From the NCBI GenBank assembly GCA_003278125.1, contig QCGX01000008.1, forward strand, positions 1 through 52,388: 52,388 bases of DNA. The letters run 5' to 3'. How positions within the stretch are numbered: the first letter of the stretch is position 1; each line of letters starts with the position of its first letter. Of the stretch, positions 6,704 to 23,881 are shown piece after piece. The notes beneath the pieces were generated by a model. That model was not told where the DNA came from. It searched no databases and saw only the letters and a program-made list of their open reading frames with translations. This DNA comes from Pelagibacteraceae bacterium AG-390-C22. Its GTDB lineage: Bacteria; Pseudomonadota; Alphaproteobacteria; Pelagibacterales; Pelagibacteraceae. Position numbers and translations under genes: made by a program.

Positions 6704-8092
6704 ATGTCTTTTAATTGTAGGTTTGCGCCCTCTCCTACTGGGCCTCTTCATATAGGCGGTGTTAGAACTGCCTTGTTTAATTGGCTGCTTGCTAAAAAAA
6801 ATAAAGGCAAATATTTTTTAAGAATAGAAGATACAGATAAAGAAAGATCTAAAGAAGAATTTAAAAAACAAATTATTTCTTCATTAGCATGGCTCGGAAT
6901 TGAGCATGATGGAGAAGAATATGTTCAATCTAAAAATATTTCAAAACACATTAATGTTGCGGAAGAACTTCTTAAAAAAGGATTTGCATATAAATGTTAT
7001 TGCTCTGAAAAAGAAATTAACGAACAAAAAGAAAAATGTAAAAAACAAGGTATCCCATATGTTTATAATAGAAAATGGAGAGATGCTAAAGATCTTCAAG
7101 TTCCAAAAGATGTAAAACCAGTTATAAGGTTTAAAAGTAAAATTTCCGGCAATACGGTAATTAAAGATTTAGTCCAAGGAGAAAGAAACATTTCTAATTC
7201 TACAATAGAAGATTTTGTTATTTTAAGAAAAGATAAGTCTCCAACCTATCAATTGTCAGCTACTGTTGATGATCACGAAATGAAAATTACTCATGTTATA
7301 AGAGGTGATGACCACATGATTAATTCATTTAAACAAAAACAAATTTATGATGCTATGGGATGGGAAGTGCCCTTCTTTGCTCACATACCTTTAATTCATA
7401 GTGATAAAGGCAAAAAACTATCAAAAAGAGATAATGCTTCTACATTAGAAGATTATATAAAAATTGGAATAATCGCTGATGCTTTAAGAAATTATCTTTT
7501 AAGACTAGGTTGGTCTTATAAAGATAAAGAGATATTTACTAAGCAAGAAAGCATTGATCTTTTTGATTTAAATGGTGTTGGAAAATCTCCCTCAAAACTA
7601 GATATGTCAAGAATACACTCGATTAACGAAACATATATAAAGACTATTGATGAAAAAGATTTATTCAATTTTTTAAAAGAATATGTTTCAAAATACAAAG
7701 AACCTATTAATCAATCAAAAGAACCTATACTTATTAAATCAATGAGTTTTTTAAAGAATAAAGCTAAAACTTTAGAGGATATCTGGAATAATGCTCAATA
7801 TATCATCAAAGATAAAATTGAAATTGGATCGGAAGATAAAAAACTAATTGATGATTTATCTAGAACTATAATCAAAGAATTTATAGCTGAATATGAAAAA
7901 TTAAGCTCTTTATCAAAAGAAACGTTAGAACCAGTGATAAAATCTTTAATTGATAAGCATAAAACAAATTTTAAAGGTGTGGGTCAGCCATTAAGAATAG
8001 CTTTAGTAGGGTCTAGATTTGGGCCAGGTTTGTATGATGTAATTTTATCTTTAGATAAATCTAAGATAATTAGTAGATTAAAAACAATTTAA
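6704..8092 (+). CDS. gltX: Glutamyl-tRNA synthetase
   Basis: Charges tRNA(Glu) with glutamate; in organisms using GatCAB it may also mischarge tRNA(Gln). The 462-residue class I synthetase has the HIGH-type motif PTGPLHIGG (11-19), the segment CYCSEKEIN (98-106), the conserved VIRGDDHMINSFKQ loop, and the KMSKS-type motif KKLSKRDN (237-244), followed by the helical anticodon-binding domain. It follows lexA by 19 bases. Its stop overlaps by four bases the stop of the convergent secreted-protein gene. In many alphaproteobacteria gltA follows gltX, but not here. Confidence 0.97.
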   Translation: MSFNCRFAPSPTGPLHIGGVRTALFNWLLAKKNKGKYFLRIEDTDKERSKEEFKKQIISSLAWLGIEHDGEEYVQSKNISKHINVAEELLKKGFAYKCYCSEKEINEQKEKCKKQGIPYVYNRKWRDAKDLQVPKDVKPVIRFKSKISGNTVIKDLVQGERNISNSTIEDFVILRKDKSPTYQLSATVDDHEMKITHVIRGDDHMINSFKQKQIYDAMGWEVPFFAHIPLIHSDKGKKLSKRDNASTLEDYIKIGIIADALRNYLLRLGWSYKDKEIFTKQESIDLFDLNGVGKSPSKLDMSRIHSINETYIKTIDEKDLFNFLKEYVSKYKEPINQSKEPILIKSMSFLKNKAKTLEDIWNNAQYIIKDKIEIGSEDKKLIDDLSRTIIKEFIAEYEKLSSLSKETLEPVIKSLIDKHKTNFKGVGQPLRIALVGSRFGPGLYDVILSLDKSKIISRLKTI

Positions 8093-8691
8093 CCTAAGGC
8101 TTTATTGTGCCCAGGTTCAAAATTAACTTGGATAGGACCGTTCTCTTTATCACCATCACATATTCTTAGAAAATGATACATGGATACATCTTTCATATCT
8201 TGTGGAATAGTTATTTCGGAAGTGAAATTCTTATCAATATTGATAGCTATTCTTTTGAATGAGCTACTTTCAAGTTTCCCATCTTTAAAAGTTTGATAAG
8301 GAAGATAAAATACTTTCAAATTTTTTATATCGAAAGAATCATCAAGTTCTTGGGCAATTTTTTCAAATTTTAACACTTCTTTAAGATCAACTAGATTTTC
8401 AATATTTGATAAAGATTCAAAATCTCTGGTAGGGTTATTTTTGTAAAAGAATCCCTCTTCTTCGCTAATTAAAAATTGAGAGGTAGGAACGACTGATAAA
8501 AGGGGTGCTTCTTCATCCATAGTATCTAATGTTTCGCTATATATTTGGCCAGATTCCATCAAAACAGCGGCTGCAACGGGTTTACATGTATAAATTTTAT
8601 CTTTTGCAAAGGCAGAGTTAAAAATTAAAAATATTGTTATAGTAAGAGGAAACAAAAAAATTAATAGGAAACGCATTCCCCTTTTGAACAT
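8089..8691 (-). CDS. Secreted protein of unknown function
   Basis: A 200-residue protein I do not recognise. It has a basic start (MFKRGMR), a hydrophobic stretch of about 20 residues and an AFA-K junction near residue 29, a good signal-peptidase I site, so the mature protein is probably periplasmic. An internal ATG at 8676 (MRFLLIF) is an equally plausible start. The mature part has two cysteines (in YTCKP and RICDG) that could form a disulfide, and no membrane segment. It is convergent with gltX (four-base overlap) and divergent from the methyltransferase gene, so it probably has its own promoter in the 83-base gap. No partner gene hints at a role. Confidence 0.75.
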   Translation of the reverse strand: MFKRGMRFLLIFLFPLTITIFLIFNSAFAKDKIYTCKPVAAAVLMESGQIYSETLDTMDEEAPLLSVVPTSQFLISEEEGFFYKNNPTRDFESLSNIENLVDLKEVLKFEKIAQELDDSFDIKNLKVFYLPYQTFKDGKLESSSFKRIAINIDKNFTSEITIPQDMKDVSMYHFLRICDGDKENGPIQVNFEPGHNKALG

Positions 8692-8751
8692 AAACAGATG
8701 TTTTTATTAGGTTTAAATCTTGTTAAGAAAATGATTTTTTTACTTTTTTAA

Positions 8752-8757
8752 TATAAT
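8752..8757 (+). promoter_or_regulatory. Possible -10 box for the cytosine methyltransferase
   Basis: A TATAAT lies 17 bases before the methyltransferase ATG at 8775. Transcription would then begin about ten bases before the start codon, leaving no room for a Shine-Dalgarno site, and none is visible. No convincing -35 is seen at normal spacing. This is tentative. Confidence 0.3.
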
Positions 8758-8774
8758 ATGGATTTGATTCATTT

Positions 8775-9788
8775 ATGAACAAAATTAAATCAATAGATTT
8801 ATTTGCAGGTGTTGGTGGTTTACGAATTGGCCTTGAAAAAGCTCTAAAAAAACTAGGTTTTAAACATGATTGTGTTTTTTATTCAGAAATTGATAAAAAT
8901 TGTAGAAAAACCTACGAAAAAAACTTTCCTAAGACTTTTTTAATTGAAGATATAAAGTCTGTTAGAAAAAATAATATCAAATCAATAATACCTGATCATA
9001 ATATTCTATTAGCTGGATTTCCTTGCCAGCCTTTCTCCCAGGCAGGTGTTTCTGTGAGAAATTCACTTGAAAGAAAGCATGGATTTCAAGATAAAGATCA
9101 GGGAAATCTATTTTTTAATATTTTAGATATACTTAATAAAAAAAGACCAGAAACTTTCTTATTAGAGAATGTTCAAAATTTAGTTACGTATAATAATGGA
9201 AAAGTAATAAAAAAAATTCTTAAATTGCTTAGAAAAAATTATTATGTTCCAGATCCGCAAATACTAGATGCTAGAGATTTTGGTTTAGCACAACGCAGAA
9301 GAAGAGTTTACATAGTTGGTTTTTTAAATAAATCATTAAATAATTTTGTATATCCTGAAAGAATTAAAAAAGAATTACGAGTAAAAGATTTCTTAGAACA
9401 TAAAGTAGATGATAATTATACAATATCAAACAAACTCTGGTCTGGTCATATAAATAGAAAAAAAAGAAATAAAAAAAATGGCAAGGGATTTGGTTTTAAA
9501 CTTACTCACCCATTAGATTCTTGCACAAATACCATATCTTCAAGATATTACAAAGACGGTAGTGAATGCTTAATTTCGCAAGGACTAAATAAAAATCCAA
9601 GAAAACTAACACCGCGTGAATGTTTTAGATTACAAGGTTTTCCTGAAAATTTTAAATTATCCAATTCTAAAGTAGAGGCTTATAAGCAAGCAGGTAATTC
9701 TGTTCCGGTAAAAGTAATAGAAAAAATATGCATTAATATAGTTGAATATTTGCTATCTGGAGACTCTAGGTTAAAAAAAATAAGTTAA
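8775..9788 (+). CDS. DNA (cytosine-5-)-methyltransferase of the defence island
   Basis: Transfers a methyl group from S-adenosylmethionine to carbon 5 of cytosine in a short DNA target. The 337 residues carry all key motifs in canonical order: I DLFAGVGGLRIG (8-19), IV GFPCQPFSQAG with catalytic Cys84, VI ENVQN (131-135), VIII QRRRRVYIVGF (173-183), IX LTPRECFRLQGFP (278-290) and X QAGNSVP (305-311). The target-recognition region is about 185-275 and includes a TISSRYYKDGSE segment; I cannot predict the target. It faces the AIPR-Z1 operon tail to tail with a four-base overlap of the two stops, so methylase and effectors have separate promoters. It would be expected to protect self DNA from the opposing operon; an orphan methylase is the alternative. 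Confidence 0.95.
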   Translation: MNKIKSIDLFAGVGGLRIGLEKALKKLGFKHDCVFYSEIDKNCRKTYEKNFPKTFLIEDIKSVRKNNIKSIIPDHNILLAGFPCQPFSQAGVSVRNSLERKHGFQDKDQGNLFFNILDILNKKRPETFLLENVQNLVTYNNGKVIKKILKLLRKNYYVPDPQILDARDFGLAQRRRRVYIVGFLNKSLNNFVYPERIKKELRVKDFLEHKVDDNYTISNKLWSGHINRKKRNKKNGKGFGFKLTHPLDSCTNTISSRYYKDGSECLISQGLNKNPRKLTPRECFRLQGFPENFKLSNSKVEAYKQAGNSVPVKVIEKICINIVEYLLSGDSRLKKIS

Positions 9789-11785
9789 TCAAATACCCCG
9801 TTATCTTCGGCTAATTTAATTGCTACAACCACTTTTTCAGCTTGCTTCGGAGAAGGATCATTAACCCATTTTTTTTCTGCCATACTTAAAAAACTTAAAG
9901 CTAAATTACTTAACTCTACGTCTACTTTATCTGTCTCTCTACACCAAGCCCATAAATCATTCCATTCATCAATGCTCATATCCTTACACATTTTAATATT
10001 TTGACTATCTTTTTGTGAATAGTATTTTTTAATATTAGATTTAGTTTTTTCAAACTCAAGTATCTTTCTATTAAATTGAAATTTTCTATCTAACAAATAA
10101 TCAAAGCTTTCTTCTTTTTTACACCACTCAGATATATTTCCTGATGATCCTTTTAAAATTGATTTATATACTTTTAGAGACCAGTCCTCTATTAAATATA
10201 AAAGATTATCTGAAAGACTATTGTCTTGCCAAATTAAATTATGGTGAAGATTTCCGTTAGAAGAGTCTGACATTAAAGCAACGGTAAAATTCAATACCTG
10301 TGATCTATATCCTTCAATTGTTTTATTGCTTTTAATTATCTTAGAAGTTTTATCGAATATCATTGCCTTTGCCACACAACCTTTAAAAAAATCATGGTCA
10401 TACACTGGCTTGAATTTTCTTCCATTTACATATCTCATAAACTGTATGAAATTTTTTTGAGCACCTTTATTACTTGTATATGGTTCTTTAAAATCCCAAC
10501 ACATTAAATATTTCGCTAACTCTTCTTTCGTAAATTTCATATGAGGAGGAGATAACTCGTTAAAAGAAGATTTTTTATCTTTTCCGAGATCTTTTTGTTT
10601 CATTTTTTGAAGTTGATACTCACCCCGCATTCTTTCATAAAACCATTTTTTTCCATTTGAAGTAGTGACTGTTTCTGAAAGTTTTTTAAATTCTTTATGG
10701 AATTCATGATTTGAAGAAAAGTCAGCTGTCTTAACACTGTTCTGAGTATTTGCATAAACAGAAATATTTGGAACAACTTCTGTAAACTGATCTTTACTCA
10801 CAATTGTAATTTTTGCAGGAACAATTACTTTTTTTAAATCAATACCATCTACTTTATGTGTTCTTGAAATAGTTGCAGTAGTTTGCCCGCCATTAACTAT
10901 TTGAAAACCTTTAGCTTCCTTTATAAATAATCCTTCACTGTCACTGCCGATTTCTAAATCCTCTACAACAGCTGAAATACCATTATTATAAGAAAAAAAT
11001 CTATCTGGATTTTGAATTAAAGTCTCTCTAAGACCTTTGTTTATTTTACCTGACAATTGCAAAAAAGATCGAACATTAAGGTTTAATATTCTTTGACCCC
11101 ATGAGTTATAAATATTTGCTAGTGTTTCACCCGGGATAAAAGCCATATAACTTGTAATTTCCTTAGTTTTGTGAGCTAACATACATCTTGTTTTATCGGT
11201 AAAATCTTCGAAATTAATTAAAATATTAGATAAATCAGCTCCCCCAATACTCATTTCATAAATTTTATTTAAATCATACAAATGAAATTCACATTCAACT
11301 TTTTTTGGCAGGTTCGATAAAGAAATTTTCTTTTCACAAATAAAATCTGTAAATATAAATATTCTCAAATTTTGTATAGGGTTTTTTAATTTACTTATTT
11401 TTTTTGTTAGATCGTATATTTCCTCTTTTTTATTAATTTTTGAACTTAAATCTTTTGTAGAAGATGTAAAAAAATTTAAAGATTGCTCAGCTAATTTATT
11501 TAATTCCGACGCACCTATGCTTTTAACTTCGTTCTCTTGATTTACATGCGTTATAAAAATATCAAGTTTTGAAGTGTTTTCGTCTAATGAAAAACCATTT
11601 AATTTAAGTTTTTTCCCGTTTATCTCTTTTTCAAAATAGCAAAGCTCATAATCAATTATTAAACCTTTATCGTATAAAATATCTGCATATGTTTTTGTTA
11701 AAACTTGGCCTGGAGTTTCATCATAATCATCTTTTTTCTCATTTTGTAATCTGTAAAAAAAATTTTTAATTTCGGTATCTTTCAT
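9785..11785 (-). CDS. AIPR (abortive infection phage resistance) family protein
   Basis: A 666-residue cytosolic protein. The two best markers of the AIPR family are visible: FFSYNNGISAV (263-273, NNGI at 267-270) and FQIVNGGQTTATI (294-306, NGGQT at 298-302). AIPR proteins are named after a lactococcal abortive-infection protein and recur in defence operons; their biochemistry is poorly settled. The C-terminal half, rich in Lys, Trp and acidic residues, matches nothing I can name. It is the last gene of the minus-strand operon, overlapping the upstream PD-(D/E)XK gene by four bases (ATGA), and it converges on the methyltransferase. A downstream effector role is inferred from position. Confidence 0.85.
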   Translation of the reverse strand: MKDTEIKNFFYRLQNEKKDDYDETPGQVLTKTYADILYDKGLIIDYELCYFEKEINGKKLKLNGFSLDENTSKLDIFITHVNQENEVKSIGASELNKLAEQSLNFFTSSTKDLSSKINKKEEIYDLTKKISKLKNPIQNLRIFIFTDFICEKKISLSNLPKKVECEFHLYDLNKIYEMSIGGADLSNILINFEDFTDKTRCMLAHKTKEITSYMAFIPGETLANIYNSWGQRILNLNVRSFLQLSGKINKGLRETLIQNPDRFFSYNNGISAVVEDLEIGSDSEGLFIKEAKGFQIVNGGQTTATISRTHKVDGIDLKKVIVPAKITIVSKDQFTEVVPNISVYANTQNSVKTADFSSNHEFHKEFKKLSETVTTSNGKKWFYERMRGEYQLQKMKQKDLGKDKKSSFNELSPPHMKFTKEELAKYLMCWDFKEPYTSNKGAQKNFIQFMRYVNGRKFKPVYDHDFFKGCVAKAMIFDKTSKIIKSNKTIEGYRSQVLNFTVALMSDSSNGNLHHNLIWQDNSLSDNLLYLIEDWSLKVYKSILKGSSGNISEWCKKEESFDYLLDRKFQFNRKILEFEKTKSNIKKYYSQKDSQNIKMCKDMSIDEWNDLWAWCRETDKVDVELSNLALSFLSMAEKKWVNDPSPKQAEKVVVAIKLAEDNGVFD

Positions 11786-12768
11786 ATCTTTCCTAAAAAA
11801 TCATTCTCATTAATTAAAAAGTTGCTGCATTTGTCTAAATTTATTTTATAATCTAATTTAATCTTTTCAATACCATCTGGAATATCAATTTTTGTTTTAT
11901 CAATAAATGGAAATTTTTTTCCAACAGAATAATATGAAATCTTATCAATATTAAATTTTTGAAGGTAAAAGTCTTTATGAATTTCAAAATAACCAACCTT
12001 CATTAATTTTAATAAAAAACTGTTATAATCTTCCTCAGAACTTTTTTTTAAATTTTCAGAGAATGTATAGATTAGTTCGTTTAAATTTGAACCTCCTTCA
12101 TCTTTTTTTATTTTTAAAAATGAAAGAAATAATTGTTTATCGTGATTAGGGTTGATTTGAGAGTCAGTAGTATTTATTAAATTTTCACCAGCACTTGTTT
12201 TAACCTCAATAAATGAATTTACAGTTGAAAAATCTAAACTCTTTGATGGTCCTGTCCATGTATTAAGTGCCTCGCTTGCTTTTAATTTTTTAACTAGTAT
12301 TTGACTTAATATGAATATCTCTCCAAATAATCCAAGTTGGGCTTCTAATTTTAGGGGTCTCGGCCCACGTTCATCTTCAAAAAATTCTTTATAATCGTTT
12401 AAAATACTAAGAAATTTTTTTATTTCTTCTTCAGCTTTTATTTTTTTCAAAATAATTACTGTAAGAATTAAATTAATAGTTTTAATAAAAATTTCTTGAT
12501 ATTCAGTTTTTTTTAATTCCATTATAACTCTGTCGTCTAAAAATTTTACTGACCAATTTCTAGCTTGAGGGAGTAATTTAGGATCTATTTTGATATTCTT
12601 TTCAATTCTTATTTCTAAACCAGGAAGATGGTTGTTATTTGTAATAAACCAAAATTGACCATGAGCTTTTATTTCTCCACCTCTCATAAAGCTTTCATTA
12701 TTAGTTGTACGATCAATTAATTTATCCCATTTTTCTAGAAGATTAAAAGATGAACTGCCTGTAGACAT
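11782..12768 (-). CDS. PD-(D/E)XK nuclease-like protein (DUF4420 type)
   Basis: 328 residues. The middle shows a restriction-endonuclease-fold active site: a helix with LGLFGE (Glu150), then SLDF (Asp179) and FIEVKTS (Glu188-Val-Lys190), which is the E...D...ExK pattern, preceded by a mostly beta N-terminal region. Proteins of this type (PD-(D/E)XK motif protein, DUF4420) commonly sit beside Z1 helicases. In this operon it is the obvious candidate for the DNA-cutting subunit. It starts six bases after the Z1 stop and overlaps the AIPR start by four bases. The catalytic assignment is from motif spacing, not from any alignment I could run. Confidence 0.8.
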   Translation of the reverse strand: MSTGSSSFNLLEKWDKLIDRTTNNESFMRGGEIKAHGQFWFITNNNHLPGLEIRIEKNIKIDPKLLPQARNWSVKFLDDRVIMELKKTEYQEIFIKTINLILTVIILKKIKAEEEIKKFLSILNDYKEFFEDERGPRPLKLEAQLGLFGEIFILSQILVKKLKASEALNTWTGPSKSLDFSTVNSFIEVKTSAGENLINTTDSQINPNHDKQLFLSFLKIKKDEGGSNLNELIYTFSENLKKSSEEDYNSFLLKLMKVGYFEIHKDFYLQKFNIDKISYYSVGKKFPFIDKTKIDIPDGIEKIKLDYKINLDKCSNFLINENDFLGKI

Positions 12769-12773
12769 TAAAT

Positions 12774-15700
12774 TTAGCTTGCTGCCTCGTAAGGAACATC
12801 TTTAAAATGTTCTCTAATTGCCTCAACATATTGATCGTGTCTTACCCTATTATAGGTGATGTTAAAAAATTGTGTAATTGAACTTTGGTCCGTTAAAGTT
12901 GGTGGAATAAAAATTTCCCAATTTACATTTAAACAATCATCTGAATAATTCGGATCATCTTTAAATAAAGTTGTAAATGGATATAAAACAAGCAGACCTT
13001 TTTTTCTATTTCTTTGCAGGGTTCTGCTAAAATTATCTGGCAAATAATTTATATTTTCTTTTATTTTTTTTGTCACAATAGATCCTTTTTTTTTATATAG
13101 TTCAATCCACTCATTAATTGCATTATCAAATTCATATTTAGTCAAACCGATAAACTTAGATTTGGGGTCAGCTAACGCTCCTGTAGAAAATTCTTCTGGA
13201 TGACGTATAGTAGGTTCAGCTGATCTTTGTTGTGCAGGAATTATAAGATTATTTCCAAAATTAATTGTAGGAATTTTTTTTGTATTCTCTTTTATAGAAA
13301 ATATACTTACATCCCATTTTAATTCTCTATAAGTTTCTTTAAGATTTTTAATTTTCATACTTAAAGTTTGTGGTGTCCAATGTCTTGTTGTTCTAGGCAT
13401 TTTAAAATCTTTTAAATATTGAATAATTAAATCTGTATTAATATCTCTCCATAAATAACCTTTTGAGAGTTTTGGATGTGAATATTTTTGTTCTTCGAAA
13501 ATTTTTTTTATTTCCTCTATTGATAGATCTTTTTGAATTTCTTCTTTTAATTTAGTTGGATAATAAATATTTTCTTTTTCATAATAAGAATTTAACTCTT
13601 TTTCAGTCTCAAATTTTTTATTAATTGATTTAATCAAGTTCTGTGCAATTTTTATATTATTTTTTCTTATCTGGTTATTTTTATATACAATAATTGTTTG
13701 GTGGTGATTTCCTCCAAGTGACGCAAATGGCTCTACTGCTGTTCCCATATCCTTGCCTTTACTTTTTGCAATTACGTTCCACCCAGGGAAAGTAGGTATT
13801 TCTAAAGCATATTCTCTTGGGCTAAAGCTTTTAATAGCCATTTCTGCAAATACATTTCGCGCATACTCCATTGTAAATGAAAATTGTCTAAAAAGAATAT
13901 GAAGTTGTTTTGGGCAGTATACTCTATATAAATCCTCGTAGCCATCTCTGTAACCAAACCATCTGCCCATTTGTATCAATGTGTCTGAGGTAGGCAACTT
14001 TGCTAATCTTAAAAAATAACTTACATTTAAGCCCTCTAAGGTTATACCTCTAGATATAGCAGCACCACCAATTACTATAATATTCCACGCTTTGTTTTCA
14101 CGATCTTTTCTTTCATAATCTAAACTATCATCTGAAACACTATTAATTTTCAAAACATCTATTTTGTTTTCTTCATCTGTAATTAAAGAGACAATCTTTG
14201 ACCAAAGTAGCTTAAATGTCATTTTTAAATCATCTGGATATTTCTTAAAATCTATATTTTTTCTAACTTCTTCTAACCAAATTTTTTCAAATTCATTCTT
14301 AATTTGTTTTTTTTTGGTTTCATCAACTTCTACAGTTAAAACTTGTTTTAAGTTATTTAGGTATTCTTGAACTTGAATAGTTACTGATTCTTGAACAGTC
14401 CTCGAAAATCTACTTACATGAATTAACATTGAGTTATGTTCTGACTTTAATTTTCTTTGAAAACGTAAGGCTATATTAATTAAATAAATATTAATGGCCT
14501 CTTTTAATGAAGGTGGAAATTGATTTGTCAGCTTATACATCGGATTATGGCTAATGCCATGATATAATGGTAACCATCCTTTGATTTTGTGATAGTCAAT
14601 TCTTTTAATTTTTGCCTCTTTTCTGTACTCTCTATCTCTTTCTTCATCATTATCTTTCCATTTTTCATCATCAAAATCATCTCGATAATCATAAACCCAT
14701 TTTACTTGTGGTTTGTCATTCTTATCTATATTTTCTGAAAGCGTTACTATATCATCATCTTGTTCAATATTTTTGTCAGCTGTTCCAAAAACATCATCTG
14801 GTCCTACATAATTAGGATATCTTTTTAATAATTTAATAAAATCTCTGGGAAATAAATCAGCTTCTTCATTAGTTTTAACCGAAGTATAGTCAATCATTAC
14901 ATTGGCAATAGGAGTAGCTGTATAACCCACATATGCTCTTTTTTTAAAACAGGTTAATATTCTTCTTATTAATAAATTTGTTTTAGAGGGATCAGTTTCT
15001 TGAAAATCAACAAGCTCTTCAGGAGTCATATCGGCCAGAGTTTTTTTTGAAACTCTTTTTGCAATATCAATTGAGGCTTGATCGCACTCATCATCGATTA
15101 TTAATAATGATTTATCACAAGCCAATTTATGTGTAGGTAAATCTTCTACATCACTTTCACTCCAGCCTTTCCATGTAAATTTTTCTTTAGTTGGTTCTAT
15201 TCCTTTTTGATTGGCGATCCATTTTAAAATTTCTTTTAAAATAGGTACACTTTTTTTAATAACTAAAACTGCTGGATCATTATTAAGAAATGTAAGTTTT
15301 TTTTGACCATTAAAATCATTTTGATTTTTTATTTTTCTAACTCCATCAGGTCCTATTGGATGATATTCTGGCATCTGAGTTAAAAAAACAGGTTTATTTA
15401 CTCCTGGACTAGTTTTTTGTTCACCGTGTAAGATCGAGTCCATCAATCTTTTTTGAGTTTGAGATCTTAAGGCATTATAAATACCAGTCATAACAATAAT
15501 CATTTTGTAACCACTATCTAAAGCCTTTGCTACAAGGCCCACATAATTAGCAGTTTTTCCAGATTGAACATCTCCAACTACCATACCCGTAACTGACCAC
15601 GGTTGATCATCTCTCTTTGGATCTTCAAGATCGCCTAGTGTTTCGTCTGTACTTAAATCTAAATCTCTAAAAGCACCAGGTCTTTTATAAGAATTTAATT

Positions 15701-16043
15701 TTCTATAGTAAGCGAATTGACTTTGTTTATTAGGATCATTCCATATTTTTCTTTCTGGCTTAAGCCAAAATTTATGCCCCGCACCCAAATTTCTCTCTGT
15801 ACTTTTGGCTTTAATAACTATCTCGTTTGTCCTTGGCATAACATGTATTTCATCTAAATATGCCTGCAATTCATTCGTAAATTTCTTGGCGTAGGAATGA
15901 TGGCTGATAAAAGATTTTAATAACCTTAAACCTTCTTTTCTATTTTCAGGGAACCAATGAATGGGATCTTTTGCTTTAATGCTTTTAGCAAAAGTTTCAT
16001 GGAAAGCGTCAAGTTGTCGTAAGCAATCATTAAGTTCAAACAT
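12774..16043 (-). CDS. Z1-domain superfamily II helicase/ATPase
   Basis: At 1089 residues this is the largest protein of the island. Helicase motifs are clear: Walker A GDVQSGKT (157-164), motif Ia-like IVMTGIYNALRSQTQ, Walker B LLIIDDECDQ (313-322, DDEC instead of DEAD/DEAH), motif III YTATP (374-378), motif V SRGITLEGL (664-672) and motif VI QMGRWFGYR (691-699). The segment around motifs V-VI is the Z1 signature. The family is known to associate with GHKL ATPases, C5-methylases and nuclease-fold proteins in restriction-like operons. It probably translocates on or remodels DNA to activate the neighbouring nuclease. It lies 12 bases after the GHKL gene stop and 5 bases before DUF4420. Confidence 0.93.
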   Translation of the reverse strand: MFELNDCLRQLDAFHETFAKSIKAKDPIHWFPENRKEGLRLLKSFISHHSYAKKFTNELQAYLDEIHVMPRTNEIVIKAKSTERNLGAGHKFWLKPERKIWNDPNKQSQFAYYRKLNSYKRPGAFRDLDLSTDETLGDLEDPKRDDQPWSVTGMVVGDVQSGKTANYVGLVAKALDSGYKMIIVMTGIYNALRSQTQKRLMDSILHGEQKTSPGVNKPVFLTQMPEYHPIGPDGVRKIKNQNDFNGQKKLTFLNNDPAVLVIKKSVPILKEILKWIANQKGIEPTKEKFTWKGWSESDVEDLPTHKLACDKSLLIIDDECDQASIDIAKRVSKKTLADMTPEELVDFQETDPSKTNLLIRRILTCFKKRAYVGYTATPIANVMIDYTSVKTNEEADLFPRDFIKLLKRYPNYVGPDDVFGTADKNIEQDDDIVTLSENIDKNDKPQVKWVYDYRDDFDDEKWKDNDEERDREYRKEAKIKRIDYHKIKGWLPLYHGISHNPMYKLTNQFPPSLKEAINIYLINIALRFQRKLKSEHNSMLIHVSRFSRTVQESVTIQVQEYLNNLKQVLTVEVDETKKKQIKNEFEKIWLEEVRKNIDFKKYPDDLKMTFKLLWSKIVSLITDEENKIDVLKINSVSDDSLDYERKDRENKAWNIIVIGGAAISRGITLEGLNVSYFLRLAKLPTSDTLIQMGRWFGYRDGYEDLYRVYCPKQLHILFRQFSFTMEYARNVFAEMAIKSFSPREYALEIPTFPGWNVIAKSKGKDMGTAVEPFASLGGNHHQTIIVYKNNQIRKNNIKIAQNLIKSINKKFETEKELNSYYEKENIYYPTKLKEEIQKDLSIEEIKKIFEEQKYSHPKLSKGYLWRDINTDLIIQYLKDFKMPRTTRHWTPQTLSMKIKNLKETYRELKWDVSIFSIKENTKKIPTINFGNNLIIPAQQRSAEPTIRHPEEFSTGALADPKSKFIGLTKYEFDNAINEWIELYKKKGSIVTKKIKENINYLPDNFSRTLQRNRKKGLLVLYPFTTLFKDDPNYSDDCLNVNWEIFIPPTLTDQSSITQFFNITYNRVRHDQYVEAIREHFKDVPYEAAS

Positions 16044-16055
16044 GATACTATTTAA

Positions 16056-17090
16056 TTATTCTTCTTTAATTTTATCAAGGTATTTTTCCCTTATTTTTTT
16101 TATATTTTGAAACATCGTTTTTTTGAAAAAATCAGGAATATTGATCTTATTTTTTTGACTAGGTATCCAATCTTCCACATTATTTATGGGAAGTTCAGTT
16201 AATATTCTAAGTCTTCTGAATTTATCTGTCGTGCTGAGCTTAGTTCTGGACTCACTATCAATTTCAAACCATCCTCCAAAATCTATAATGCGGTTTTTTC
16301 TTGAAAAATATAAACCTTGAAGTTCATTTCCGTTTTTATTTAGGTTTTCTGAAGAAATTTCTTTCGGAATTATATAAGGCTTTAGTATTACTTGGGAGCC
16401 TCTAGAATTTACAGGAATATCTTCTAATTTCATTGTATCTTTATTATTTTCATAAAATGGATCAAAAGATTTTATTCTATTAATTTCATCATTTCCTTGA
16501 AAAAATATATTTAAATTACTTTGAGAAATACGCTTGTGATAAATCATCGTAAAATGTTTTTTTACCCTTTCAATTTGATCATAAAAATTACCTTGTGTTG
16601 AATCTCTTCTTTTCATTAAATAATCTAAATCGCTCCACAAAATAATAGTTCCTGATTTTTTGTTTTTTAATTCTTCAATTTTTGATTTTACTATTTTATT
16701 GGATGAACATTTTGGTAAAATATCATTTGGTTTATCGTGATCCATGTGTTGGGTCTTGAATGAAAAATTTTCCTTTTTAGATAAAATTGTTAAACATTTA
16801 CAATGAGCAAAAGTTCCTTGTTTTAAACCAAGTCCATATCGTCCTAGATCGTCTGGGCCACTATCAGAATAATTACTATTATCTTCTGGTACAATTAATG
16901 CTTTATTAATTATTTCATTTTCATCCATTCCACATCCATCATCCATAGTTAAAATAAATGGATCATCGGCAAACCATAAATATAACTCGATATTTTTTGC
17001 TTTAGCTTTAATGCTATTATCAACCAGCTCCGCTAAAGACTCTGCCAGTGTGTACCCTTGGTTTCGTAAGCTTTTAAAATTAACTTTCAT
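16056..17090 (-). CDS. GHKL ATPase (MORC/MutL/Hsp90-like)
   Basis: 344 residues from the ATG at 17090; a TTG one codon earlier (17093) is the alternative. The Bergerat ATP-binding fold is unmistakable: N box ESLAELVDNSIKAKA with Asn26 (numbering from the TTG), G1 box DDGCGM (51-56), and G2 box GRYGLGLKQG (84-93), as in MORC and MutL proteins. There is no histidine kinase phosphoacceptor and no CW or PHD finger. ATP-driven N-terminal dimerisation around DNA is the general mechanism of such proteins. It overlaps the DUF2779 gene by 11 bases and precedes Z1, the arrangement described for MORC-like ATPases in bacterial restriction-modification-type operons. The exact role here is inferred. Confidence 0.9.
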   Translation of the reverse strand: MKVNFKSLRNQGYTLAESLAELVDNSIKAKAKNIELYLWFADDPFILTMDDGCGMDENEIINKALIVPEDNSNYSDSGPDDLGRYGLGLKQGTFAHCKCLTILSKKENFSFKTQHMDHDKPNDILPKCSSNKIVKSKIEELKNKKSGTIILWSDLDYLMKRRDSTQGNFYDQIERVKKHFTMIYHKRISQSNLNIFFQGNDEINRIKSFDPFYENNKDTMKLEDIPVNSRGSQVILKPYIIPKEISSENLNKNGNELQGLYFSRKNRIIDFGGWFEIDSESRTKLSTTDKFRRLRILTELPINNVEDWIPSQKNKINIPDFFKKTMFQNIKKIREKYLDKIKEE

Positions 17091-18615
17091 CAAAAAAATA
17101 TTTAATCAAATAATATAACGCAAGTGTATCTTTAGAACAGTATTCTAATAAAAGTTTTTTTTGTTTTTCTTTATCTTCTACTGTTGTTTTTGGATCAGTG
17201 CAAATAAACCAAGCTAAAACAGCGTCATCGCCACCTGAAATATTTTCATCTTCTGTATAGCTTATTTTAGAATTGGGTAATGCATTAATAATAGATTTTA
17301 TACCCCAATCTCCATTCATTAATGGTGAATAAAAATTATGTTTGGCAATTATTGCTGTGTCTTCAACTCTAGCTATTAGGTTATCAATTTTACCAGATAA
17401 ATCTTTGCAACTATCTTTTTCTTTGAGTCTTTCTAAAGTTTTAATTTCTACTGACTGAGCGCTATGAGCGAATATTGTACCTTCATTTCCTACGGCATCT
17501 AAAAGAGTCTCTATAAACTGTCTTTCAATATCTTGATCGTTAAATTTTAAAAAAGATTTTCCTTTATCTACTGTTTTATTTTTAGACTCCCATTTGTGAA
17601 CAGACCATTGAAATGGTAAGGGATAATACGGATCTGTACCTATAATTATAGGTACACCTTGTTGAGCAGTTTCAAAATCAATAAAATATAAAGGAAATTT
17701 AAATTTCTTTATGATTTCTTTTAAGTTTGAACTAAACCATGGTTTGTTATTTTTATGAGCTTCTTGTATTATTTGATGGTAGCCTGGTGCGTAATCTTTT
17801 CGATCTATAAAGAAACTGGAAGGAACTTTTTGTAAATCAACTGTATTGTTGTCTTCCATGTATTCAATTAATTTTTTACTTTTTCCTATATAAGGTAAAA
17901 TTGTATATGGTGTCACGTTTGGTGCTTTTAAAACTGATTTACATCTTTCAATATAATCACATGGATAAGGTTTAACACAATGTAAGCCTATATCTATTTT
18001 TGGGCAATTGGCTTCTTTACTTGTAATAGGTAATAATTTTTTTATATAACTTTGAACTTCTTTTTCATTAACACGTTTCGTTAAATCATTGTCATCACTG
18101 ATTAAATTCTTATAGTCGCCCTTTTTTTTTAAAACGAATTCTGTATTGATATGAATTAACTTTATATTTAACAATTTTTTACCAATTACCTCCAAACTTT
18201 TTCTAGCTATATATGATTGAATTGAAACATCTGGGATATGTTCAGGTTTAAGTTTTGTTGAAGATTTAGCTTCAATTAAATCCCATCCATTATTGTTTTT
18301 AATTAAAACGTCAGTTCTTACTAAAGTATTATTGTATTCAAATGTAGCTTCAAAAATTATGTCGATCTTGTCTGACTTAATGGCATTTAATGTATCTTTT
18401 ACGGCAATGTTTGGCCAGGTTTCTGATAAATCAAGTATTTTTAAGTTTTTTTGAGAATAATTTTTTATTACTTGATCTCCAAAAAGACGCCCTCTATTGA
18501 AAGCAGCTTTCTTTTTTTTTTTTAACGGTTGGTGAACTTCGTTCCACAGTTTCTTTTCACATTGTAAACCGCTAGCAATCTTGGTTTTTGTAAGATAGTT
18601 ATATATTCTTCCCAT
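17080..18615 (-). CDS. DUF2779 protein: RecB/Cas4-like nuclease fused to DnaQ-like exonuclease
   Basis: A 511-residue two-domain protein. The N-terminal part (1-230) resembles RecB/Cas4-family nucleases: Asp102 in VRTDVLI, then Glu115-Ala-Lys117 (LIEAKSS), a QSYI helix, and cysteines Cys19, Cys213, Cys219 and Cys225. One N-terminal plus three C-terminal cysteines is the layout of iron-sulfur nucleases such as AddB and Cas4. The C-terminal part (about 305-505) has YFIDFET (Asp313/Glu315), an AHSAQ segment and YCSKDTLAL (Asp496), a DEDD exonuclease-like pattern typical of DUF2779. A tract of 12 adenines encodes Lys32-36. It is the first large gene of the operon, three bases after a 58-aa gene. 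Activity of either site is unproven. Confidence 0.82.
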   Translation of the reverse strand: MGRIYNYLTKTKIASGLQCEKKLWNEVHQPLKKKKKAAFNRGRLFGDQVIKNYSQKNLKILDLSETWPNIAVKDTLNAIKSDKIDIIFEATFEYNNTLVRTDVLIKNNNGWDLIEAKSSTKLKPEHIPDVSIQSYIARKSLEVIGKKLLNIKLIHINTEFVLKKKGDYKNLISDDNDLTKRVNEKEVQSYIKKLLPITSKEANCPKIDIGLHCVKPYPCDYIERCKSVLKAPNVTPYTILPYIGKSKKLIEYMEDNNTVDLQKVPSSFFIDRKDYAPGYHQIIQEAHKNNKPWFSSNLKEIIKKFKFPLYFIDFETAQQGVPIIIGTDPYYPLPFQWSVHKWESKNKTVDKGKSFLKFNDQDIERQFIETLLDAVGNEGTIFAHSAQSVEIKTLERLKEKDSCKDLSGKIDNLIARVEDTAIIAKHNFYSPLMNGDWGIKSIINALPNSKISYTEDENISGGDDAVLAWFICTDPKTTVEDKEKQKKLLLEYCSKDTLALYYLIKYFFDES

Positions 18616-19426: not shown

Positions 19427-20320
19427 TTAATTAAATTTAATTATAAAGCTTCTAAAAAGTAACAACAAAAACAATAGTGAAACTATTTGGAAAAAAATAC
19501 TTGTTAAAATGTAAAAATTTTTTTTAATATGTGAAGATTTTAGTTCACTTAATTTTTCATTCGATTTTTTATACAATTCATCAGATTTTAGTATAAATAA
19601 TTCGCTTAATTCGTCCATAATTTTCATGTCGTTTTCAATTTTTTTGAATAAAAGCATTTTATACTTATAGACATCGTACCAATCTCTTAATCTAAATTCT
19701 TTTATAGCTTTTTCCCTATATTCTTGTAGATCAGAATAACTTTTATCTATCCAATGATAATTAAAACCGAGCAGCTTTGTATAAACAAGTACATTTTTAT
19801 TAAAAAATTTGTCTTTATCTTTTTTAAAAGGATTCATATCAGCTTCAAATAAGTCAGACAATGAGTGGTATTCATCTTTTCCTACTTTTTCAAATATTTT
19901 CTCATTTATAATATATAGTTGTTCGTATTGAGATCTAATCTCTATTGTCATATCTGTAACTTCTAAAATCTCTTTCATCATCATTCTTCCTAGATCTTGA
20001 GCATTTATTTTATTGCTTTTTCTATTAAAAAAATCATATCTATCAATCTCATTTAAAATATAAGATTTTATAAGTAAGTTTCTTCTTAATATAATTGGGG
20101 TAAAATTTAGTCCTCCACCCATTGAAATACTATCCAGAGTCTCGCTTATTGTTTCATGTTTAGATAAATTATTATTAATATTTTGATATTCTATATTTAA
20201 ATTTCTAATCTTATCTTCTGTTCTAATAACCATTTGATCGAAACCAAAAGATAAAATTGTAGACAAAGCTACAAAGAAAATTAATATTATAGATGTTTTA
20301 TTTAGTGTACCTCGTCTCAT
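19427..20320 (-). CDS. Membrane protein with two terminal helices and a large helical loop (partner B)
   Basis: 297 residues, family not recognised. One membrane helix lies at about 9-26 and a second at about 270-292, with some 240 charged, helix-prone residues between (starting RTEDKIRNLNIEYQNI), as in four-helix-bundle sensor loops. A short cytoplasmic tail (FIIKFN) follows. No kinase, HAMP or signalling domain is attached. It is last in a five-gene operon and overlaps the preceding gene by four bases (ATGA). Its length and topology match that preceding gene closely, suggesting a paralogous or heteromeric pair. Function unknown; the proximity of a PrsW protease makes a sensor or substrate role conceivable but unproven. 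Confidence 0.7.
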   Translation of the reverse strand: MRRGTLNKTSIILIFFVALSTILSFGFDQMVIRTEDKIRNLNIEYQNINNNLSKHETISETLDSISMGGGLNFTPIILRRNLLIKSYILNEIDRYDFFNRKSNKINAQDLGRMMMKEILEVTDMTIEIRSQYEQLYIINEKIFEKVGKDEYHSLSDLFEADMNPFKKDKDKFFNKNVLVYTKLLGFNYHWIDKSYSDLQEYREKAIKEFRLRDWYDVYKYKMLLFKKIENDMKIMDELSELFILKSDELYKKSNEKLSELKSSHIKKNFYILTSIFFQIVSLLFLLLLFRSFIIKFN

Positions 20321-21213
20321 AATTTTTTCTTTCTTTTTAAAGCAATTCTTACTGATGAAATCTCAAAAAATTGGATTATAATAAAGACTAATAATTGAAG
20401 GAAAAAAGCTACCAAAATTATACTTTTCTCTTTATTTGAGAGATCAATTATCTCTTCGTTAATTGTTTCTAAATTAACATCTACGGAAATTAAGCTCGCG
20501 TTCATGTACCTTAAAAGATAACTAAAAAGAGTTTCAAGATCTTCCCATAAATAAATTGTCTCATTATACACTTTCTCAAATTGACCTTGGTCTTTTAGAT
20601 ATTTAAATTTACTTTCATTTCTCATTGAAGATTTTATCTCTTCACCCAAATCTTGAAAAGACCTTTGAAAAATTATGCTTTCTAATTCTATTGGATTAAG
20701 TTTTTCTAATAAAATAAATGTTTTTTTCACATTTTCAGTTATAATTTTATAATTTTTAATTTCTTCATCAGTAAAAACATCGGAATCAAATAAAAAATTA
20801 TTTTCGTCCAATATCAAAACAAATTCCGACATAAATTTTTCTTCACGAACTATGTCGTATAATGCGTAAACCTGTAAATCATTTGGAGATGAAACCACTT
20901 TTCCGAATTGATTAAGTCTCAAAAACTCTAGATGTTGTTCAAAAGATCCCTCAAGGTTTCTATATTGTCTTAGTTTATTTTTATAATCTATTATCATTTT
21001 AGTATATTTTTCAGTTTCTGATTTGGCTCTTGACTGTTGGAGATGTTCGAATTCTAAATTGCTTACTTTATTCTCTATATAAATTGATATTGATGCTGCT
21101 GAGAGAGCGAATATAGATAAGAATAATCCTACATTAATCAAAAATATTGCTCTCTTCGAATTTTTAGCTATAGCAAAGTAGTTAATTAATAAAGATAGTT
21201 TAAGAAGTTTCAT
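20317..21213 (-). CDS. Membrane protein with two terminal helices and a large helical loop (partner A)
   Basis: 298 residues, not recognised. A basic N-terminus (residues 1-22) leads to a membrane helix at about 25-47 (INVGLFLSIFALSAASISIY), a coiled-coil start (ENKVSNLEFEHLQQSRA), a long soluble loop, and a second membrane helix at about 268-288 followed by a basic tail ending KRKKKL. The topology resembles chemoreceptor-type periplasmic loops, but no cytoplasmic signalling domain exists. It starts four bases after the PrsW stop and its own stop overlaps the next gene. Near-identical size and layout to that neighbour argue that the two work together. Confidence 0.7.
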   Translation of the reverse strand: MKLLKLSLLINYFAIAKNSKRAIFLINVGLFLSIFALSAASISIYIENKVSNLEFEHLQQSRAKSETEKYTKMIIDYKNKLRQYRNLEGSFEQHLEFLRLNQFGKVVSSPNDLQVYALYDIVREEKFMSEFVLILDENNFLFDSDVFTDEEIKNYKIITENVKKTFILLEKLNPIELESIIFQRSFQDLGEEIKSSMRNESKFKYLKDQGQFEKVYNETIYLWEDLETLFSYLLRYMNASLISVDVNLETINEEIIDLSNKEKSIILVAFFLQLLVFIIIQFFEISSVRIALKRKKKL

Positions 21214-21217
21214 GCCA

Positions 21218-22006
21218 TCAGTAAATCAAATGCATTAAATAATTCAAGATTAAATAAATTATTAACGTGCTGGCTGAAATATTAATAAAGCTTGTGATAG
21301 AAATATTGTAATATCTTTTGTTAAATATAATACTTTTTTTTTGTCGTAATTTTAAATCTTTAAATATAAGATAAGCTCTGATTGCAAATATTAGTAATAA
21401 AAAATATGCAACTTTGTAACTTATTACAGAACTTAAAAAACTAAAATTATATAAGCCATGTATTCCTACGGGTATAAATAAAGCAAGGAATAAATTTAAA
21501 TAATTATGTTTTTTTTCAAAAATACTTTGAGAGATCAAAAATCCCATTACTATCCCACATAACGCATGCATTGGTATGGCTGTAAATGCCCTAATTAATG
21601 CAACATCAAAAGAAGGGACTTCATAATAATATAAAACATATTCAATATTTTCATAAGCAGCAAACCCTAAAGAAGCTGCTATACCATATATTACTCCGTC
21701 CATTGGCTCATCAAAAGCTGTTTTACGAGTACAATAAAATATAATTACGCATGCTTTAAAAAACTCCTCAACAAAAGCCGCTCGTATAAAATTATCAAAG
21801 AAATTATAAGTTTCACCACTTAAATATTCTTTACTATAATCATCTAGGACAGGTGTAATTAAATTTATTGCTAAGATTGTTCCACATCCAAATAAAAATG
21901 TTTTGAAAACTATTTTTGGAGGCTCAGGAAATTGATCTTGTTTGTAAGCATACAAAACTAATACTACTGCAGGTAATATTGCTGCTAATAAGTACACAAA
22001 ATACAT
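21218..22006 (-). CDS. PrsW-type intramembrane metalloprotease
   Basis: 262 residues with about seven to eight membrane helices. PrsW/CPBP-like motifs are in place: FVEEFFKA with Glu80-Glu81 (EExxK), DGVIYGIAASLGFAAYEN (103-120) ending in Glu119-Asn120, His147 in AIPMHALCG, and His183 in GIHGLYNF. In Bacillus, PrsW makes the first cut in the RsiW anti-sigma factor; homologues elsewhere have varied or unknown substrates. No anti-sigma or sigma factor is adjacent here. It lies one base after the DUF2167 gene and four bases before the paired membrane proteins, so those neighbours are the first candidate substrates. Metal-ligand assignment is from family motifs. Confidence 0.85.
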   Translation of the reverse strand: MYFVYLLAAILPAVVLVLYAYKQDQFPEPPKIVFKTFLFGCGTILAINLITPVLDDYSKEYLSGETYNFFDNFIRAAFVEEFFKACVIIFYCTRKTAFDEPMDGVIYGIAASLGFAAYENIEYVLYYYEVPSFDVALIRAFTAIPMHALCGIVMGFLISQSIFEKKHNYLNLFLALFIPVGIHGLYNFSFLSSVISYKVAYFLLLIFAIRAYLIFKDLKLRQKKSIIFNKRYYNISITSFINISASTLIIYLILNYLMHLIY

Positions 22007-22007
22007 T

Positions 22008-22928
22008 TTATTTTTTTCTTTTACGCTTTCTTACAAGTGTTGAAGTATCTTTTGTAGAATTGTTAGAATTTTCTTTTCCACTTAAGAATTTTCCTAAAAA
22101 AACTAAAGGTGCAAGTAATATCCACCAAAATTTAGCTAACTTAACTAATAGACCAGTTTTAGCTAAAGCTTTGACACCTAGAGATCCAGCTACCAATCCT
22201 CCTATACCTGCTACAGCTACTTTGTCGCCAGATTTATAGTCAGAATATTTAAAGCCATCATTAAATCCTACTCCGTTAACAAAATCTTTTGAAAATTCAG
22301 AATGGTAATTAAAATCTAATTCTTTATTATAACCAACCACATAAGCGCTTTCTAAATAGCCTTTTTTTCCTAAAATCAAATTTTTTGACTCCATTGTCTC
22401 CCTACCTGTACTCCAAAAAACCTTATAAGAGTAACTTACTGATTTATTTTCCTTATTAAGTGTAGGCTTAAATATCCAATCAATTTTAGTCACGTATTCT
22501 AGATTGTTTTTCTTCAAATATTTTGCATTAATTGATGCTGTTTCTCTCAATTGTTTTAATAAATCTTTTGGATTAACACTTTCCCATTCATCTAATTTCA
22601 CATAACCGTCATCTGAGTAATTTAGATAAATTGTGTATTCATCACCTTTTATTAAAAAAATAGTATCTGAGTCAGTGTAACCATATGACCACCAATGATA
22701 CTGATCAATTTCCTGTCTGTTATCTAAATAAATTTCACTTTCTATTATAAGAACATTTGCATTCGTATCTTTAATTTTTTTGGAATGTTCTATTGAATCA
22801 AGATTTTTCCAATTAAGAGTTACAAGTTTTTTATACCTCTCTTCAGGATCATCTATTTTTTTCTTTTCAATTGCTAAAATATTAGTATTGAAAAAGAAGA
22901 ATAATAAAATTAATGAAATGTGCTTCAT
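22008..22928 (-). CDS. DUF2167 membrane-anchored periplasmic protein
   Basis: 306 residues from the ATG at 22928 (MKHISLILLF), which opens directly into a signal peptide; a TTG at 22949 adds seven residues and is less likely. The body matches DUF2167: an N-terminal LNWKNLDSIEHS, later QYHWWSYGY, YVKLDEW, INAKYLKKNNLEYV and SYSYKVFWSTGRE segments. The C-terminus (about 237-285) is glycine/alanine-rich and hydrophobic (VAVAGIGGLVAGSLG, then FWWILLAPLVFLGKF), with a basic end RKRKRKK on the cytoplasmic side. DUF2167 proteins are described only as membrane-anchored proteins of unknown role. The gap to PrsW is one base. Confidence 0.85.
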   Translation of the reverse strand: MKHISLILLFFFFNTNILAIEKKKIDDPEERYKKLVTLNWKNLDSIEHSKKIKDTNANVLIIESEIYLDNRQEIDQYHWWSYGYTDSDTIFLIKGDEYTIYLNYSDDGYVKLDEWESVNPKDLLKQLRETASINAKYLKKNNLEYVTKIDWIFKPTLNKENKSVSYSYKVFWSTGRETMESKNLILGKKGYLESAYVVGYNKELDFNYHSEFSKDFVNGVGFNDGFKYSDYKSGDKVAVAGIGGLVAGSLGVKALAKTGLLVKLAKFWWILLAPLVFLGKFLSGKENSNNSTKDTSTLVRKRKRKK

Positions 22929-22939
22929 TAATCTTTTAA

Positions 22940-23116
22940 TTATTTCCAATCAGCCTTTAATAAAGCTCCACCTATCAATCCTATAATAATTGGACTAAAT
23001 CTAGAAATTCCATCAGGTAAAAATGGAGTTAAATTATAGCCTGCATATGAGAGGCCGAAATCTGCGATTGCAAATATAACTAGTATACCTCCTATACCTT
23101 GAATAATTGATTTCAT
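22940..23116 (-). CDS. 58-residue two-helix membrane protein
   Basis: An ATG at 23116 opens 58 codons ending TAA at 22940, eleven bases before the DUF2167 ATG. The product has a first hydrophobic stretch (SIIQGIGGILVIFAIADFGL), a short polar loop containing NLTPFLPDG, and a second hydrophobic stretch (FSPIIIGLIGGALLK) ending KADWK. It looks like a small inner-membrane hairpin protein with both ends on the same side. It is the first gene of the membrane operon. I recognise no family. Its codon make-up and tight spacing support it as a real gene. Confidence 0.65.
   Translation of the reverse strand: MKSIIQGIGGILVIFAIADFGLSYAGYNLTPFLPDGISRFSPIIIGLIGGALLKADWK

Positions 23117-23227: not shown

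Positions 23228-23881
<654 letters not shown>

Follow-up and report, generated by a model that had tools for sequence, protein, structure and literature searches.

A PrsW-family protease core in SAR11 bacteria adjoins exchangeable, putatively receptor-like membrane modules

PrsW is known mainly as an enzyme that cuts anti-sigma factors, and few physiological partners are known for the bacterial relatives of neurotransmitter-gated channels. Here we describe a five-gene membrane locus from SAR11, a group among the ocean's most abundant cells, in which a PrsW-family protease adjoins a pair of loop-type membrane proteins, loopA and loopB. The window, meaning the whole 52,388-nucleotide stretch of Pelagibacteraceae bacterium AG-390-C22 that was analyzed, belongs to contig C8 of a genome of 1.04 Mb that is 90% complete. 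All five open reading frames are on the minus strand where a sequence-only reading of this DNA had placed them, and the gene-to-gene gaps, recomputed from coordinates, are likewise confirmed as 11, 1, 4 and -4 bases. The DUF2167 gene is listed from the ATG chosen in that reading; its mechanical open reading frame begins at a TTG at 22949.

22940 to 23116, minus strand: hp58, a 58-residue membrane hairpin (open reading frame, hydropathy, alignment of relatives)
22008 to 22928, minus strand: DUF2167 protein (PF09935, E 1.5e-30; hydropathy)
21218 to 22006, minus strand: PrsW-family intramembrane protease, 262 residues (PF13367, E 2.2e-34; conservation over 31 sequences)
20317 to 21213, minus strand: loopA, 298 residues (open reading frame, AlphaFold model, hydropathy, conservation)
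19427 to 20320, minus strand: loopB, 297 residues (open reading frame, AlphaFold model, hydropathy, conservation, co-divergence with loopA)
21190 to 21220, strand not applicable: recombination junction between core and cassette (best single breakpoint 21196; identity profile)

Profile searches bear out the identities proposed for the two recognizable proteins. The protease matches PF13367 at 119.2 bits (cut-off 23.5) across residues 28-207 of its 262, and the DUF2167 protein matches PF09935 at 106.7 bits (cut-off 25). No second Pfam domain was found in PrsW at E 1, hence no fused toxin domain was seen. Against the NCBIfam equivalog NF033739, PrsW scored 130.2 bits and did not reach the cut-off of 225, which by profile score makes it a member of the PrsW family and not the named equivalog. 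Positions E80, E81, K84, E119, H147 and H183 are invariant in 31 aligned SAR11 sequences (the window plus 30 others; the truncated L011 was left out). Taking the E-E-x-x-K motif and the later Glu and His motifs as the PrsW catalytic positions, the active site appears intact, as expected of an active enzyme. In L011, PrsW is split over two frames (8001-8775; tblastn pieces 8001-8462 and 8461-8775), possibly by a frameshift.

The DUF2167 protein probably has an N-terminal signal or transmembrane (TM) segment, a periplasmic domain and a C-terminal TM hairpin; its L007 counterpart has an open frame of just 152 residues, another possible frameshift. For hp58, hydropathy calls one TM segment, a second hydrophobic stretch is visible by eye, and an alignment of 11 relatives gives D19 F20, N28-L29-T30, F32, F40 and G49 as invariant. 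No Pfam or NCBIfam family was matched above cut-off by hp58, loopA or loopB, and PDB sequence searches with loopA, loopB, PrsW and DUF2167 returned no credible relative.

The window PrsW has 10 close relatives in genome contigs, all from Pelagibacteraceae or Candidatus Pelagibacter (SAR11) records. The order hairpin-DUF2167-PrsW-loopA-loopB was found again in L003, L007 and L010, and L005 has the same order minus the hairpin, with loopB interrupted by the contig end; because this order recurs in other SAR11 records, the gene set is not a product of chance. A promoter scan of the window gave 30 sites against 30.6 expected from shuffles, no excess, which leaves gene spacing as the sole argument for a single transcript. 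Directly upstream on the same strand (23228-23881) lies a 217-residue protein with abundant Pro/Glu repeats and two stretches that look hydrophobic by eye; its homologs in L003 and L010 are placed likewise. An ATPase inhibitor zeta subunit gene (PF07345) lies downstream of the five genes on the opposite strand.

Comparison with the relatives separates these genes into two blocks. Sites grouping the window with L007 versus L010 number 198 and 402 in the core, and 573 and 100 in loopA plus loopB. This grouping switches at the PrsW/loopA junction (best breakpoint 21,196; Fisher P 2e-84) and reverts in the downstream zeta gene (13 versus 21, P 2e-9); these values, and all those given below from hypergeometric, Fisher or permutation tests, assume independence among genomes and loci that are in fact related, and are too optimistic. 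Protein identities follow the same division: window versus L007 gives 0.50 for DUF2167, 0.58 for PrsW, 0.83 for loopA and 0.82 for loopB, and window versus L010 gives 0.63, 0.86, 0.43 and 0.52. Across eight loci, the loopA and loopB identity matrices correlate at r 0.97 (reached by 8 of 40320 permutations), compared with 0.59 for loopA-PrsW (1015 of 40320) and 0.68 for loopB-PrsW (345 of 40320). Using all available pairs, the values are 0.97 for loopA-loopB, 0.51 for loopA-PrsW, 0.67 for loopB-PrsW and 0.87 for DUF2167-PrsW. LoopA and loopB therefore travel and diverge as a pair, with PrsW following loosely. We conclude that hp58, DUF2167 and PrsW form a core and that loopA plus loopB is a separately exchanged cassette. 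Judged from these sequences, PrsW can combine with different loopA/loopB versions. The joint itself varies, as the loop pair adjoins PrsW in divergent transcription in L039 and L043, and both L039 and L051 have the loop pair and PrsW without a DUF2167 match.

AlphaFold models of the two loop proteins resemble each other. LoopA (pLDDT, the predicted local distance difference test score, 74.7; pTM, the predicted template-modeling score, 0.59) has two very long helices at residues 2-89 and 213-297; in loopB (pLDDT 73.1, pTM 0.60) they span 8-92 and 211-294, and a helical head connects the pair in each model. Together with hydropathy, we read each long helix as a probable TM segment continued by a periplasmic stalk. 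The predicted layout of loopA is accordingly a short N-terminal end, TM1, a long stalk, a variable helical head, a return stalk and TM2, and the same architecture is predicted for loopB. With segment limits that we set ourselves, mean pairwise identity is 0.58 and 0.59 for TM1 and TM2 of loopA, 0.56 and 0.63 for those of loopB, and 0.22 and 0.24 for the loopA and loopB heads. Invariant residues around loopA TM2 are I255, E262, I266, F270, Q273, F277, Q281, F283 and E284; most are spaced by 3-4 residues, as on one helix face, with F283 as the exception. This pattern fits a conserved TM bundle, should such an assembly form, beneath a fast-changing sensing or recognition head.

Neither structure nor profile comparison gave the loop proteins a close relative among the families searched. 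Profile comparison of loopA with loopB detected no significant homology. PDB fold searches with both models returned generic coiled coils, BAR domains, SMC arms, chemoreceptors and toxin stalks, none outstanding; the best VIA Z scores, 10.3 (root-mean-square deviation 7.6, 177 residues aligned) and 12.2 (5.2, 170 aligned), are both under the level of about 13 below which the tool warns for long helices. A pentameric ligand-gated ion channel (pLGIC) was considered and rejected for loopA (hhalign probability 0.6% against the pLGIC profile); neither window loop protein matches PF02931 or PF02932 in a Pfam scan, the profile comparison covering loopA only. In a draw of 240 Alphaproteobacteria genomes, loopA was found in the window's own genome alone. 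On the strength of these models, loopA and loopB are predicted to be a stalk-shaped membrane protein pair, receptor-like in shape, from an undescribed family.

The loop pair is not the only neighbor of PrsW. We compiled 31 PrsW loci, 10 via the search with the window's own PrsW and 21 from a draw of 197 Pelagibacterales genomes; several are near-duplicates (including L006/L011, L008/L009, L041/L042, L047/L049 and L057/L058), and L060-L065, comprising G067 and five sub-cut-off matches, were left out. The loopA/loopB families lie within 6.5 kb of PrsW in 8/31 loci and a pLGIC family in 12/31, and the two were found together in none (P 0.01 if independent). By clustering of open reading frames, the hp58 family is near PrsW in 14 loci; the hp58 copies of L003 and L010 were removed by the overlap filter, yet were detected by tblastn. 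The channel assignment comes from PF02932, over cut-off in L009 (5e-8), and PF02931, over cut-off in L050 and in the second L048 channel, with further matches below cut-off. A 13-sequence profile of the family matched 284 distinct PDB sequences at E<=1e-3, the best being the solved bacterial channels 9ftg (E 9.8e-38) and 6v4a (E 1.1e-37), the latter of which we take to be DeCLIC. The SAR11 slot proteins thus match solved bacterial channels of the pLGIC class (DeCLIC, ELIC, GLIC), in contrast to window loopA, which has no such homology.

Closely related PrsW cores carry different partners in this slot. PrsW of L007, which has the loop pair, and of L008, which has a pLGIC, are 85% identical, with lpxB upstream in both; those of L048 (pLGIC) and L051 (loop pair) are 91% identical over 215 aligned residues. 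The joints are tight in either gene order, with PrsW preceding the channel in L044 and L046 and following it in L050 and L053. The five genes are accordingly not the fixed unit they were first taken for: the loop pair recombines apart from PrsW and DUF2167, and a pLGIC stands beside PrsW instead in the 12 loci noted above.

Many of the SAR11 channels have an extra N-terminal region (e.g., L048:9025-10551, L047:6301-7842, L050:8694-10259 and L044:8924-10480). A profile of this region, searched against the PDB at E up to 10, ranked GRIP1, a PDZ protein, at the top (E 0.0037), ahead of a lipoprotein that is not a PDZ protein (0.014) and, in third place, the paired PDZ domains of a site-2 protease homolog (0.029); PF00595 matched 4 of 8 members weakly (best 0.0048, below cut-off). 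Sorting channels into long and short classes that we drew from where the profile match starts, PrsW is present in 9/11 genomes with long channels versus 2/9 with short ones (Fisher P 0.02). These matches are suggestive of a PDZ-like N-terminal region, on channels that may prefer PrsW genomes. Two further families recur near PrsW. One, of about 154 residues (L009:8807-9271, minus strand, and homologs; the L009 member has no Pfam match), occurs in 9/31 loci, in 8 of which it accompanies a pLGIC near PrsW, L051 having the loop pair instead; it could be a regulator. The other, of about 277 residues with a signal-peptide-like start, is near PrsW in 8/31 loci (e.g., L006:8778-9614 and L041:9255-10088, both minus strand, L052 and L054), and three members scanned had no Pfam match.

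Co-occurrence was then counted across the 197 Pelagibacterales genomes. PrsW is over cut-off in 22 of them, a count that includes G067 (47.6 bits) and omits G012, G085, G098 and G164, with sub-cut-off matches only, as well as a second sub-cut-off match in G069. DUF2167 is found in 6 genomes, 5 of them with PrsW. The loop pair is found in 7, of which 6 have PrsW; the seventh, G122, has a contig that ends inside loopA, where the neighbor would lie. Left out were G029, G185 and G067 for loopA (E 3e-4 to 9e-4, frames of 504-639 residues) and G076 for loopB (8e-4). A pLGIC is present in 20 genomes, 11 with PrsW (P 2e-7), under a threshold of E<1e-15 fixed after the list was seen; PF02932 alone marks 11 genomes, 8 with PrsW. 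Of 34 genomes, that threshold leaves out 14 (E 1e-5 to 1e-3, model positions 15-153, frames of about 202 residues), none with PrsW, and with them the count becomes 11/34. The frames in question (e.g., G139:C1:127496-127906) align with the pLGIC profile solely in its N-terminal part and may be a free-standing relative of that domain. Taken together, the loop pair or a pLGIC occurs in 26/197 genomes, including 16 of the 22 with PrsW (P 2e-12), and all 17 co-occurring matches share a contig with PrsW at distances under 7 kb (maximum 6.8 kb). The expectation that the neighbors would be conserved together is partly borne out: PrsW is significantly linked with DUF2167 and with loopAB, but the composition of the set is modular.

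A PrsW core beside a swappable loop pair or pLGIC points to a protease that may serve cell-surface receptors, and most likely, on sequence evidence, PrsW trims or regulates modular membrane receptors. We give a probability of roughly 0.4 to the reading of the locus as a modular membrane-receptor unit in which a PrsW core is combined with an exchangeable receptor cassette. LoopA and loopB would assemble, via conserved TM faces, into a single hetero-oligomeric envelope receptor; PrsW would cleave or trim the receptor subunits at conserved membrane-proximal segments, for maturation or switching off; and DUF2167 and hp58 would have accessory or assembly roles. In other SAR11 cells this protease type would serve pLGICs, which would explain how one PrsW type tolerates different partners, and no anti-sigma factor would be required for the output. 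The earlier proposal of a self-contained envelope-sensing unit is favored by the tight co-directional spacing, the conserved neighborhood, the intact PrsW active site, the failure to detect an ECF-type (extracytoplasmic function) sigma factor and the predicted receptor-like shape of the loop pair, and loses its claim to a single obligate set of five genes. It had also offered one of the loop proteins or DUF2167 as the protease substrate. DUF2167 is a poor candidate for a universal partner because the loop pair accompanies PrsW without a DUF2167 match and in divergent orientation, and because pLGICs can replace that pair beside PrsW; the loop pair, or the channel replacing it, is the better candidate substrate or client.

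Several observations weigh against the modular receptor reading. Six of the 22 PrsW genomes carry neither the loop pair nor a pLGIC, and PrsW is absent over cut-off from 9 of the 20 pLGIC genomes. The loop genes of G039, the 6.8-kb case, are disrupted or incomplete, with a stop, a split match and a contig end, and G176 has the loop pair plus a pLGIC about 6 kb from PrsW. A weak correlation persists between PrsW and loop divergence. The loop proteins were modeled as single chains, with intermediate confidence, and ordinary membrane constraints could account for the conserved TM segments. Several loci lie in variable islands, where some linkage may be island co-residence. In the 240-genome Alphaproteobacteria draw (PrsW in 14, 13 over cut-off; pLGIC in 4, 1 over cut-off), the two co-occurred in no genome, a weak negative as PF02932 missed 9/20 SAR11 pLGIC genomes. 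PrsW neighbors in other Alphaproteobacteria (12/18 regions, blastp) included no DUF2167, loop or pLGIC homolog; frame calling there was noisy at high guanine-cytosine content, with no frame marked as PrsW in L110, L114 and L120 and a fragmented PrsW in L121.

Of the other explanations, island co-residence fares best, although we regard it as unlikely. It holds that hp58, DUF2167, PrsW, the loop pair and the pLGIC are separate passengers of the same SAR11 variable sites that have no joint function. The window operon does sit between lpxB and a defence set resembling MzaB-E, the cassettes recombine independently, and one neighborhood with NAD-kinase-like and EF-Tu-like genes (identified by eye) holds the loop pair in G122 (L105), DUF2167 in G092 (L106) and a pLGIC in G115 (L107), three genomes in which PrsW was not matched, as if the modules shared an insertion site. 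Mere co-residence is harder to reconcile with the overlapping or near-abutting PrsW-loopA and PrsW-pLGIC joints seen in several contexts and both gene orders, and with the presence of PrsW in all loop-pair genomes except G122, cut at its contig end. Somewhat less probable still is constitutive quality control or maturation, in which PrsW, with no sensing involved, clears signal-anchor remnants or unassembled subunits of the adjoining complex. Near-identical PrsW types paired with unrelated clients, and the failure to find an ECF-type sigma factor, would suit it; a housekeeping role would be expected to be widespread, and PrsW is over cut-off in only 22/197 SAR11 genomes.

An anti-phage or anti-element membrane system, with variable heads sensing or evading phage and PrsW or the channel as executor, is improbable. 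Four window genes (9785-17093, minus strand) match PADLOC MzaE, MzaD, MzaC and MzaB (E 2e-74, 2e-16, 7e-100 and 4e-28) and are, by these matches, an Mza-like anti-phage set; a DUF2779 protein (17080-18615) adjoins them. These models beside the operon, the Cas4 (weak), helicase and methyltransferase models matched in L002, and heads that are variable and exchanged as a cassette all speak for defence, but the neighbors come without a base rate for SAR11 islands. At E 0.01, PADLOC had no match for loopA, loopB, PrsW or two pLGICs scanned, and DUF2167 matched marginally (E 0.0025, 15.6 bits). None of 253 pattern matches to loopA in viral contigs was confirmed, loopB not being searched there.

The classical route, with PrsW acting as site-1 protease on an anti-sigma factor from another locus, has the precedent of Bacillus subtilis PrsW, the prototype that cleaves RsiW (PMC3482391), and is very improbable here given just two Sigma70_r2 proteins, of 622 and 301 residues, in the 90%-complete genome. 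We take these to be the sizes of RpoD and RpoH. With only two such proteins found, an ECF sigma/anti-sigma route for this PrsW appears unlikely. The sequence-only reading had seen no sigma or anti-sigma gene at the locus; its sigma half now extends to the genome, in which no ECF-type sigma factor was found, sigma-54 and anti-sigma families not having been searched for. The window protein shares PF13367 and the invariant catalytic Glu/His positions with glutamic-type intramembrane proteases of the PrsW family, and differs from classical PrsW in its score under the NF033739 cut-off, the lack of a detected ECF-type sigma and its receptor-like neighboring modules. The PrsW-associated polymorphic toxins share the PrsW family, whereas no fused toxin was seen in the window PrsW; in the open-access literature searched, a survey of these toxins was the only source found to join PrsW and Pelagibacter (PMC3482391). 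The DUF2167 protein, above its family cut-off and in SAR11 mostly alongside PrsW, was met in that literature only in a genome announcement, leaving no function for comparison. We found nothing there joining PrsW with a pLGIC, or SAR11 with a ligand-gated ion channel. A 2004 survey of bacterial channels names PBP-II, Cache and Na+/H+ symporter neighbors, and the words "protease", "peptidase" and "PDZ" are absent from the accessible part of its text (PMC549065).

A bolder version of the modular receptor reading is doubtful. It would make SAR11 PrsW the common partner of two ligand-sensing classes of membrane protein that are unrelated and can replace one another, namely pLGICs, often with a PDZ-like N-terminus, and a SAR11-confined loopA-loopB stalk receptor doing the same job, possibly a new gated channel, with activity set by intramembrane proteolysis and not by an anti-sigma factor. 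Either way, the slot beside PrsW in related bacteria is often filled by relatives of animal neurotransmitter-gated ion channels, and loopA and loopB would define a new, exchangeable cassette of receptor proteins whose heads vary above a conserved membrane core. A consistent genetic link between PrsW and the channel in SAR11, with the loop pair replacing the channel, would give both a testable role in the proteolytic control or maturation of surface receptors.

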